Positions 30,512 through 62,011 of a stretch of DNA of 64,000 nt are shown in pieces. The stretch lies in assembly GCA_958496175.1 (NCBI GenBank), contig OY292276.1:50357080-50421079 (forward strand). The letters run 5' to 3'. The notes below the pieces were generated by a model that made no database searches, was not told the origin of the DNA, and saw only the letters and a program-made list of their open reading frames with translations. How positions within the stretch are numbered: position 1 is the stretch's first letter; each line of letters starts with the position of its first letter. Made by a program: the position numbers and the translations under genes. The stretch comes from Sisyra terminalis (taxonomy: Eukaryota; Arthropoda; Insecta; Neuroptera; Sisyridae).

Positions 30512-31212
30512 CAGTGGCGTAGCTACCTAGGGACTAGGAGGGGCAGTGCCCCGGGGACCCTCAAACTCGAATCCTTACCAGAAATCTCGATCGAACTGAA
30601 CTTTTGGAAATTCAGTTGGAAGTTCACCAATTATGTAAGGAAATAATGAGCAAATATGGAGTGCTAGAATGCGACCTAACGGAAGTATTTACAGCGATGT
30701 TATTATTCTTTCCAATTCCTGTCACTTCTGCAGCAGCTGAAAGGTCATTTAGCAAATTAAAAATAATTAAAAAATATTTAAGAAATAATATAGGCCAAAC
30801 TCGACTCCGACATTTATCGCTAATAGCGATTGAAAACAAAACCGCACCAAGCCTGGATTTAAACGAAGTCATTGATACTTTTGCGAAAACTAAAGCTGGG
30901 AAAAAATTGTAAATGTAATTGTTATTTAGTCAGTTGGTAGGCCAGACCTTTATATAATACACCCTTGAATTTTCTCTATTTCGTTTTATTAGCGAAACTT
31001 ACACCAAATATTAATTGTAATTTATGTTGTTACTGTTTAATATTTTTATTACCTGCCCTGCAGTGCACAAAAAAGAGCTTAAGTAGCTTAGTATTTTTAA
31101 AGTATTTGTATATTTCATATTTTCATTTGATAAAACCTAATCAGTTTACATAGCAGTGGGGCCCCGTTTTTTAATTTGTCCCAGGGTCTTTGGTTACTTA
31201 GCTACGCCACTG
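30512..31212 (+). mobile_element. hAT element with perfect 8-bp TSD
   Basis: The terminal inverted repeats are CAGTGGCGTAGCTAC at the left and GTAGCTACGCCACTG at the right. The flanks carry the identical octamer ATGATGCC (30504-30511 and 31213-31220). At 701 bp this is an internal-deletion derivative that keeps only the 3' end of the transposase gene. The perfect terminal repeats and target duplication suggest a fairly recent insertion. Confidence 0.92.
30604..30912 (+). pseudogene. hAT transposase C-terminal dimerisation domain, open but partial
   Basis: The 102-codon frame starts at a TTG and is open upstream to at least 30541. It contains LLFFPIPVTSAAAERSFSKL, then KIIKKYLRNNIGQTRLRHLS and LIAIENKTA. 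This is the conserved hAT C-terminal (hATC) block (P.T.A.AER.FS.L...K..LR....RL..L..I). The RNase-H catalytic region is missing, so it cannot encode an active transposase. No stop interrupts the domain, unlike most relics in this window. It lies wholly inside the 701-bp hAT. Confidence 0.85.
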
Positions 31213-59052: not shown

Positions 59053-59220
59053 TCAATCATCTTCCATATCATCGTCATTATCTTGCTGGTCTCCCATTTT
59101 ATCGGATTTTTCCACATCAATATCTTGTTTATCACTGTCGTCATCACCGTCCATATAGTCAGCGTTATCCATATCAACCATTACATTTTCGTCGTCACCG
59201 TCATTATCCATTTGCTCATC
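59053..59220 (-). other. Exon 7: acidic C-terminal tail (probable last coding exon)
   Basis: On the minus strand an excellent acceptor (pyrimidine-rich, ending ATTTTAG) at 59221 is followed by 55 open codons and TGA. Twenty-seven of the 55 are Asp or Glu, with runs such as DGDDDSD and DNDDDMEDD. The exon is phase 0, which fits a donor at GAG|GTTTGA (59799/59798) just before the stop of exon 6. An acidic tail behind an HMG box is a familiar arrangement in HMGB-type proteins, where it tempers DNA binding; the same role here is inferred. The donor is weak, so both forms (with tail, or ending Ser-Glu-Val) may exist. On the plus strand this stretch gives only a hydrophobic shadow ORF. Confidence 0.7.
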
Positions 59221-62011
59221 CTAAAATTAAATAAAAATTAAAGACAACAGTTTTTTTTTAAGTATAAATACTTCATTTTAATTAATTGTCTAATCTAAGT
59301 TATTTGTAGAAAATAGTAAAAGAAATTAAGAATATATATGTTATGTAATTTATACAAAAGATAAAATGCAAGAATGCAACCAAAATTAAACAAAAATTCG
59401 CCATGCATGATTTCTACTGAAGAATAAAAAGATTTAAAGTAATTTTGTTTGCAACATAATAGGTTACAAACATTTACAAATGAAGTAAAGAAAGTAATGA
59501 CGGATTTTTTCTGAGCTTCAATTTAAAAGGTAGGTAAATTTGCCGAGTTTCAGTCCCTTTCCAAAATAATGATAAATGTTTTTGCTATGTTTAAATTCCC
59601 TAAAAGCTAATAAAGAAATCAAATTAATTATTTTTTACAAAAATGTGATATGTAATAGAGTACCACATATGACATGTTTATAAAAAACAATTAATTTTTT
59701 GAATAAACGAAAATGATTCATTCTTTTTTGTTTGTTACAAACACTGAGCCGAAAAAAACATAGGACAAAACTCGGGAAAGGTAGGAATTCCGTCAAACCT
59801 CAGAGGTGGTCATAAGGACCATAGGTTGCAAATCTAGATGTGATTCTGGCATGTATACTTTGACGAGTCGCATTGCGTCGACACCCTTGGGCTGCGGGCG
59901 GGTCTTGGTCATCATCATCATAAAATCTCTTTGGTTTTTGCGTAATCTGGCTTCTTTTGGACTATAGTAATATCCGGGATACTTTAACTTGTGTTCCTTG
60001 TCAGCATCACGAGCTTGTTGATAATATGTCTCTTTCATATCTGCACCGAGATTTTTCCAAAGGACTCCCAATCTTACCGATATATCTTTATTACTTTCAC
60101 CTGGAAATAATTATCCAACAAACATTTAATTGAAAGTCATTTTATATATTTTGTAAATATTTACGAGGATTTTCTGTAGCTAAGCGTCGGCGCCATTCAT
60201 TTGCGAATATCATAAATGCATTAGGGGGTCGAGGAATTTTTCCGCCTTTAAGATCATTCACGTTTACTGATTTTGTTGATTTTGTAGTACTTAAGGAATA
60301 TTTAACTCCATCACTGCTAGTACTTGGTTTTGACGAAGATCCTTTATTTCCAGATGATTTTTTTCTTTTTAGTATTCTTGGTCGCGAAACTTCCGGCTAT
60401 AATAATAAAATAACTATAAGTTAGTAACTCTTTAGCGATTGAACAATCTACCGTATATACTAATTAGTAACTGTTAAAACAAGAAAATTCCTTCAAAAAT
60501 AATAATAAATGACTGATAAACTAATCACTTAAATAAACGACACTGTAGGATTATGCATATATTTAATTTAAGTCTTTTATTGTATTTCTTTACTGATAAT
60601 TTTCTTTAAAGGAAATTCCTCTTAAAGCAAATTATTTCAAATGAAATTATAAATATATGAGAAATCATAAAAATATAGTTTACTTTAAAAAATTCTTACC
60701 TCCTCAATCATTAATCTTGGTGAATCCCAATCATTAGGGCTTTCATCGTCAATATCCTTAATATCTGGTGGTTCAATTTTAATCTAAACAAAAATTTTGT
60801 TAATCCAACATTACTTACGTAATTGCTTCTACAAACCTCTGTTGGTAGGTCATCCTCTAATTTAACAGATTTAACATTTCCATTTGTTCTAGGTTCAGAT
60901 AAGACAGATTCGTTAGCCAATTCATTCTACAAAGTATAATTACTAATTAGAATACATTTCTACGACTATTGAATATGAATAACTACCACAGTGTGGGACA
61001 TTTTTCGTTTTTTTCTATGTTTGGACTCAGCATCCGAGGACAAAGATGTGTTTTCTTTATTTTGTTGGCCTTCATCATTTTCGTTTGTTTGGATATCACC
61101 CTTTTCGTATTTGTTACGTACGTTGCATAAACCTTTTACTTGGAGGGTTTCAGCCACTTCTAATATGCCATCGATATCTTCTTCCAAGACTTTGATTTCG
61201 CCACGGTACATGAATTCAATAATTAGTTTCACATCTTTAAACTGCATTTGATTCATTATTATAACAGGATTGGGAACGTTATGAACTTGAAACAGTTCCT
61301 AAACAAAATGGATGTTAGTTATATTGCCATTTTCAATAGTCTCACGATCGACGACATTAAATTGCTCGAATTTACTGGGAAAAGCATAACTCTTAGGGCA
61401 CAAAGCAGGTGATTAGAAATTTTCTTCAGCAGTGCCTTTTACATTTTATGTAGCCTTTCTAACAAGTATGTGTTACTGCAACTACCAAAACATGTTTTCA
61501 CCTATCACAAGCGTTACCAAAAGTATGTCGGCAATAATTTATGCTGAATCCTCTTGGTTCTAAGAAACCACTTATCGCATCAAGATGATTCAGTAAAAAC
61601 ATGTTGATAATGCTTGGAGCATGTCTAAATAAATCTTGAGTATTATATTGCATTAATGGCTACAAAAATTTCAAAAGGCTCTGCTGAGAAACAATATCCA
61701 CCACTTGGCTTGCTAGCATTGCTTAGTGATTCCCCTTTTTCTTTTTCATCGTTTTATGGTGGTTATAAAAATCGAGCGATTTCATGTGGTCGATCATGAG
61801 GTTACAACGAATGTTTGCATACTTGAAAATAAGGACTGCACGCGGACAAAACCATTTTGTGCGCTTTTAGGAATTGTCCTTGGCATGTCAAAGTCACATC
61901 AACAAGATTCTGTGTCGAATACTGTTCCAGGAAAACGTTGACGAAGTTGGTGGTGTGATTATTCCACCGTAAATTAAACTGTTGACACGGTGGTGTCGCA
62001 GCCGATGCCAT
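59053..62011 (-). CDS. BTB (tramtrack-type) + HMG-box nuclear protein with acidic tail, 7 coding exons
   Basis: Proposed coding exons on the minus strand are 62011-61823, 61298-60987, 60926-60837, 60783-60700, 60396-60165, 60100-59799 and 59220-59053. They join to about 458 residues, with phase-0 junctions except one phase-1 junction inside the HMG box. The start ATG at 62011 has an in-frame TAA just upstream and A at -3, G at +4. Residues 12-123 are a BTB domain with the tramtrack/lola signature (QFNLRWNNHTTNF, LKAHKMVLSACSPYFQ, IIEFMYRGEI). A basic RKKRK lies near the end of exon 2, and residues 280-350 are an HMG box opening with PRPPNAF. The last 55 residues include 27 Asp/Glu. By family, BTB of this type oligomerises and HMG boxes bend DNA in the minor groove, so a nuclear transcription or chromatin regulator is inferred. 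Introns are 524, 60, 53, 303, 64 and 578 nt. If the last intron is retained, the protein ends at Ser-Glu-Val after about 404 residues. No symbol is assigned; insect BTB-HMG proteins are often labelled SRY-like by automatic annotation. Confidence 0.88.
59799..60396 (-). other. Exons 5-6: HMG box (MATA/SOX-like), split by a 64-nt intron
   Basis: Exon 5 (60396-60165) starts with a basic/serine-rich stretch (RILKRKKSSG) and then KIPRPPNAFMIFANEWRRRL. Exon 6 (60100-59799) supplies SVRLGVLWKNL, then KETYYQQARDADKEHKLKYP and YYYSPKEARLRKN. The Pro-Asn-Ala-Phe-Met-Ile opening, the LG..W..L core, the Tyr-Tyr-x-x-Ala segment and the closing basic Tyr-Pro-x-Tyr are the usual landmarks of a DNA-binding HMG box. 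PRPPNAF resembles fungal mating-type HMG boxes, where SOX has KRPMNAF. The phase-1 junction (C|GT, giving Arg 303) falls between helix 1 and helix 2. Downstream of the box are MMMMTKTRPQP and a hydrophobic, methionine-rich segment. Confidence 0.9.
60700..60926 (-). other. Exons 3-4: short acidic linkers carrying SUMO-type motifs
   Basis: Exon 3 (60926-60837) codes 30 residues and exon 4 (60783-60700) codes 28. Both are phase 0 at each end, so each can be skipped or included without shifting the frame. Exon 3 holds SVKLEDD and exon 4 opens with IKIEPPD; both match the SUMO consensus (large hydrophobic-Lys-x-Glu), at Lys 189 and Lys 199. Exon 4 continues with many Asp/Ser/Pro residues (DESPNDWDSPRL). 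The intron between them is only 53 nt if the donor is GTTTGT at 60836. A stronger-looking GTAAGT at 60818-60813 would leave a 35-nt intron, which is below the usual splicing minimum. Confidence 0.72.
60987..62011 (-). other. Exons 1-2: BTB domain, split at the conserved SPYFQ site
   Basis: Exon 1 (62011-61823, 63 residues) ends exactly after SPYFQ with donor GTATGC. Exon 2 (61298-60987, 104 residues) follows acceptor TTTTGTTTAG and begins ELFQVHNVPNPVIIM, so the BTB fold continues without a gap. The hydrophobic pattern through EVAETLQVKGLCNV completes the domain. The N-terminal FNLRWNN segment is the hallmark of the arthropod TTK-type BTB subfamily. After the domain the exon turns polar (Gln, Asn, Glu, Ser) and closes with a basic KHRKKRK, a likely nuclear localisation signal. 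A second possible donor three bases downstream (GTT instead of GTA) would add one Val. The 524-nt intron 1 shows no recognisable coding or repeat content. Confidence 0.9.

Follow-up and report, generated by a model that had tools for sequence, protein, structure and literature searches.

A complete, intact gene that encodes a tramtrack-type BTB domain and an HMG box in a single chain was found in a 64,000-nucleotide stretch of the genome of Sisyra terminalis (Neuroptera, Sisyridae; assembly GCA_958496175.1, contig OY292276.1, positions 50,357,080 to 50,421,079), hereafter called the window. The gene lies at 62011..59053 on the minus strand, and its seven coding exons form an open reading frame of 1,377 nt (458 amino acids) that runs uninterrupted from ATG to TGA, with an in-frame stop immediately 5' of the ATG. 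We consider that the product probably belongs to an old family of transcription regulators in hexapods. It consists of a tramtrack-type BTB domain, a linker, one HMG box, a predicted basic helix, and, at the C terminus, an acidic tail, and it would act as a multimer that prefers clustered sites or joins distant ones.

The BTB-HMG gene and its hexapod relatives

The six introns measure 524, 60, 53, 303, 64, and 578 nt in transcript order, and all six have GT-AG borders. Intron 5, which splits the HMG box, is in phase 1, and the remaining five are in phase 0. In the joined protein, Pfam recognizes the BTB domain at residues 29 to 123 (E value, 4.4e-25; 61119..61927, interrupted by intron 1 at 61299-61822) and HMG_box at residues 279 to 346 (E value, 2.2e-18; 59970..60237, interrupted by intron 5 at 60101-60164), the genomic coordinates of both having been derived by hand from the exon table. 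Protein P0001 of the lacewing Chrysoperla carnea (Neuroptera; 451 amino acids) has 70% amino acid identity to the window protein over 98% of its length, and the alignment spans all six junctions into the acidic last exon. On this match, the window would most likely be placed within or near Neuroptera. Because of this continuity across every junction, the BTB-HMG chain is not a chance join, and the single-chain product with phase-compatible exons that the initial annotation had proposed is confirmed.

Both domains were found in one predicted protein in 59 of the 120 matches listed from the sequence search (the best 120 of 536 below the threshold) and in 63 of the 120 listed from the profile search (the best 120 of 827 below the threshold). 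The window protein, with both domains in one chain, is alignable along its length with this hexapod family. Among the matches listed, grouped by organism name (the lineage was looked up for four and taken from general knowledge for the others), two-domain proteins occur in springtails (Allacma, Folsomia, and Orchesella), mayflies, dragonflies, damselflies, crickets, locusts, cockroaches, a termite, stick insects, leafhoppers, a spittlebug, thrips, sawflies, parasitic wasps, beetles, and a lacewing. No fly, moth, bee, or ant was found among the organism-named two-domain proteins in the best 120 matches of each search. Bees and ants appear by name in a further listing, where they are represented solely by BTB-less HMG proteins, and Drosophila bric-a-brac 2, low in the profile-search list, shows no domain besides BTB and psq. 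Since only the best 120 matches were listed, losses in the fly, moth, bee, and ant lines are likely, not proven. Judged from sequence, the pairing of BTB and HMG holds as that of an old conserved family and not as a lone oddity.

The database names of the members conflict, including bric-a-brac, tramtrack, kelch-like 4, SOX-30-like, HMG B7-like, fruitless-like, and jim lovell-like; a conserved BTB-HMG family would explain these many misleading names. A Popillia japonica protein (P0154) is named glycosyl transferase family 2 yet has both BTB and HMG box, and is probably a merged gene model. A high-scoring BTB match from the tick Amblyomma americanum (P0044) was rejected as a family member because its BTB is repeated and no HMG box was called in it; this predicted chain contains a near-identical BTB protein sequence twice in tandem. 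P0044 was excluded from the family alignment, and P0059, P0061, and P0062 were excluded from the column counts.

The BTB domain is of the tramtrack type, as had been proposed from the window alone. The motif FxLRWN in the N-terminal extension is given as the mark of the tramtrack group in a survey of tramtrack-type BTB proteins (PMC11426971), and the window protein reads FNLRWN at residues 12 to 17, where its BTB fold has the extra first strand. Among the relatives, a regex search found the motif in its relaxed form in 52 of 62 and in its strict form in 31 of 62. The window protein shares the FNLRWN strand, the N-terminal BTB fold, and the expectation of multimers with the tramtrack-group (TTK) factors bab, lola, ttk, GAF, and CG6765. 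The DNA-binding part of those factors is C2H2, psq/HTH, or FLYWCH, whereas that of the window protein is an HMG box, which bears out the contrast that had been drawn with the zinc fingers and psq regions that usually accompany an insect BTB.

A BTB tree was built by a quick method from the window protein, 34 relatives hand-picked from 62, and 19 of 20 other arthropod proteins hand-picked from the matches (P0091, which lacks a BTB, was dropped). All 35 BTB-HMG rows were found on one side of a branch with a Shimodaira-Hasegawa-like approximate likelihood ratio test (SH-aLRT) value of 99, and the family BTB is thereby set apart, as a branch of its own, from the other 19 in the sample. The tree is unrooted; because it has no outside root, a BTB-HMG clade is likely rather than shown. 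Since the BTB-HMG rows share one side of a branch and springtails have members, a single fusion before the springtail-insect split would fit this tree.

No description of a BTB-HMG protein was found in the literature searched. The partners that the survey names for tramtrack-type BTB proteins are C2H2, HTH, and FLYWCH, and HMG is not mentioned in its main text, whose supplements may list HMG partners (PMC11426971). The combination of a tramtrack-type BTB and an HMG box in one factor is thus present in database entries and, as far as searched, without description.

Exons and conserved motifs

All of the following features are on the minus strand. Coding exon 1 (61823..62011; residues 1 to 63) contains the start codon, the FNLRWN strand, and the first half of the BTB domain. 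Exon 2 (60987..61298; residues 64 to 167) contains the second half together with the basic cluster RKKRK at residues 158 to 162 (61002..61016). A basic cluster near these residues is common to the family by column counts over 60 rows and is likely to be a nuclear localization signal. Exon 3 (60837..60926; residues 168 to 197) encodes linker with VKLE, and exon 4 (60700..60783; residues 198 to 225) encodes the motif IKIEPPDIKDIDD, which is conserved in the family alignment and the column counts. Exon 4 opens with IKIE at residues 198 to 201 (60772..60783), within the family block DDLPxxIKxEPPDIxDIDE, in which Lys199 is kept in 38, Glu201 in 46, and Pro202 in 42 of 60 rows. The lysine of IKxEPP fits the shape of the SUMO consensus, and the site may serve SUMO attachment.

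Exon 5 (60165..60396; residues 226 to 303) encodes more linker and the first part of the HMG box recognized by Pfam, and exon 6 (59799..60100; residues 303 to 403) encodes the remainder of the box, the basic helix, and an LVKV motif. The helix is predicted by AlphaFold2 at residues 350 to 368 (59904..59960). Its first part, SPKEARLRK, and the weaker LVKV motif that follows are family-wide features in the alignment. Exon 7 (59053..59220) encodes the acidic tail, with 27 D/E and 3 K/R among 55 residues, and the stop codon; the tail is common to Chrysoperla P0001.

Relationships of the HMG box

Outside the BTB-HMG family, the HMG box is closest to those of BTB-less insect HMG proteins (P0091, P0121-P0131, and P0134), with a mean of 68% identity to the window box over 12 sampled. 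In these proteins, labeled "sex-determining region Y protein" or left as uncharacterized, the box starts with IPRPxNAFM and ends with PKEAR, as it does in the window protein; they differ from it in their flanks and in the BTB, which the database domain calls do not show in them. Both kinds co-occur in Macrosteles, Cephus, Ischnura, and Diachasmimorpha, and by sequence comparison the BTB-less proteins are the closest paralogues of the box. In a tree of HMG boxes, the BTB-HMG and BTB-less insect boxes together form a group of their own (support, 92/87). This tree has 76 columns, long branches (LEF1, HMGB1, and one MATA row), and a bootstrap that did not settle, and it contains the window protein and 20 of 21 BTB-HMG relatives hand-picked from 59, P0055 having been lost because the motif search missed it.

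Boxes of the same style, with PPNAFMIFAK and, where the box is complete, YYSP.EAR, were also found in P0141 (Sarcoptes), P0142, P0144, and P0146, a hint that this kind of box may predate hexapods. Two proteins with boxes of this mite type, one of them from Sarcoptes scabiei, are 50% and 51% identical to the window box and likewise begin with PPNAFMIFA and end with YYSP.EAR.

Among classical boxes, identity to the window box is highest for the SOX/SRY group, namely, SRY (41%), SOX5 (39%), SOX30 (38%), SOX2, SOX17, and SOX18 (37% each), and SOX9 (36%). Identity is lower for HMGB1 (33%), capicua (32%), and LEF1 and BBX (29% each), and for two hand-entered MATA boxes of fungi it is 32% and 30%. 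The window protein resembles SOX/SRY factors in its single box, the Asn in RPxN, and the fold. Unlike them, it has an added BTB and basic helix and reads RPPNAFMIF in place of RPMNAFMVW, which is given as the signature for SOX membership (PMC2386450). Since this signature is absent, the SRY label misleads for the window protein, as the initial annotation had warned, and the MATA label appears to mislead likewise. The view that the box is nearer to MATA than to SOX was not supported, because identity favors SOX and the likeness to fungal MATA factors is confined to RPPNAF. The HMG tree, with SOX, MATA, and HMGB rows included, did not decide between SOX and MATA: by the approximately unbiased (AU) test, neither a tree joining insect, mite, and SOX boxes (P = 0.61) nor one joining insect, mite, and MATA boxes, both MATA rows being hand-entered (P = 0.72), was rejected. 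SOX and SRY boxes were among the best matches in a structure search. Of 73 solved chains, the 60 listed include none that bears the name of a fungal mating-type box. Fungal MATA affinity was accordingly set aside as a candidate on identity, the tree settling neither joining.

Proposed multimeric DNA bending and alternative explanations

Aligned with SOX2, the window box keeps both the FM pair and the Asn of RPxN. Boxes of this kind bind short AT-rich minor-groove sites and bend DNA. In the mechanism that we propose, the N-terminal tramtrack-type BTB would form dimers and probably hexamers, and a flexible linker, carrying the putative nuclear signal and SUMO site, would join it to the HMG box. 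Having Asn rather than Ser in RPPN, the box is of the sequence-specific sort; it would bend DNA at short AT-rich sites and is followed by the basic helix and then the acidic tail. With several boxes brought together in one multimer, the protein may prefer clustered sites or join distant ones by looping, and might either repress or activate transcription. A multimer presenting several DNA-bending boxes is likely because the BTB has the tramtrack motif. For GAF, also of the tramtrack type, papers cited in PMC11426971 report cooperative binding to multiple sites and promotion of loops; the same logic applied to the BTB-HMG protein suggests a multimeric DNA-bending regulator. A conserved family with such a partner would add a new pairing of multimerization with DNA architecture in insects and would offer a gene that can be put to the test in lacewings, crickets, and Tribolium.

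Several observations weigh against this reading. The BTB could stop at the dimer, as the BTB of Batman does. The relaxed tramtrack motif is absent by regex from 10 of the 62 relatives, and the strand B3 positions, hydrophobic or aromatic at residue 75 in 59 of 60 rows and at residue 77 in all 60, correspond to the dimer-dimer interface residues Y84 and V86 by hand alignment only. The psi-KxEP[PL] motif is present in only 31 of 62 relatives; the acidic tail, strong in the window protein and Chrysoperla, is weaker in several other sampled species and uneven across orders; and the AlphaFold2 model is poor beyond the BTB and HMG domains. In the best HMG tree, the 12 BTB-less rows are nested inside the BTB-HMG rows and adjoin the thrips protein P0031 (support, 87/77 for the 12 alone and 83/83 with P0031), and the mite rows join the insect rows without real support (31/0). 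A tree forcing the 21 BTB-HMG rows together was not rejected (P = 0.51). Given this box tree, fusion of the BTB onto an existing HMG gene and later BTB loss by the paralogue are both possible.

That the protein is a SOX-family factor that acquired a BTB, so that the biology of SOX groups B to F carries over, seems unlikely to us. The box is 36 to 41% identical to the seven SOX/SRY boxes tried versus 29 to 33% to six others, and the structure matches point the same way; against this stand the RPPNAFMIF sequence (PMC2386450) and the grouping of the insect boxes by themselves, a SOX-joined tree being neither shown nor rejected. An erroneous join of two adjacent genes, the first encoding the BTB and the second the HMG box, is a hardly credible account, and such an artefact is ruled out by the single-chain relatives in many orders and by the compatible exon phases and junction continuity with Chrysoperla P0001. 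Eight of the relatives (P0012, P0021, P0026, P0029, P0038, P0043, P0045, and P0051) have source sequences of at longest 1.3 to 3.6 kb and a Met start, and appear transcript-like. The point in favor of two genes is that in Lycorma delicatula the halves are annotated as separate proteins, P0153 (BTB) and P0062 (HMG), on contigs of equal size; this is probably one gene split by annotation.

The loci lola and mod(mdg4) are of the tramtrack type and have alternative 3' modules, and the HMG box could likewise be one of several DNA-binding ends, an arrangement that we regard as quite improbable here. Several relatives are labeled isoform X2, X3, or X5, and isoforms, as a rule distinguished by their DNA-binding domain, are described for many factors of the tramtrack type (PMC11426971). 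However, no C2H2, FLYWCH, or psq pattern was matched by regex, from which intron-split patterns escape, in any frame of the window, including the 59 kb on the 3' side of the gene; alternative zinc-finger or psq exons inside the window were rejected on this basis. The two-domain relatives listed likewise show no C2H2, psq, or FLYWCH beside the HMG box. Beyond the multimeric DNA-bending regulator favored above, we can envisage, as a doubtful extension, a hexapod-wide family from one fusion that preceded the divergence of springtails and insects and was lost toward Drosophila and moths, serving as a hub in which three BTB dimers would present six HMG boxes and fold or join AT-rich clusters. If true, most insect orders would have an architectural protein that was out of reach of fly genetics.

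A regex scan of the window found one HMG site and, in this gene, one BTB core with the right surroundings; four other matches to the 7-residue BTB pattern were taken for chance. No tRNA genes were found by a scan of the window. The window has 15 frames of at least 95 residues, and of the six outside the gene that were run against Pfam, five had no match and one was the remnant of a hAT transposase C terminus (Dimer_Tnp_hAT; E value, 7e-07) at 30538-30912 on the plus strand.
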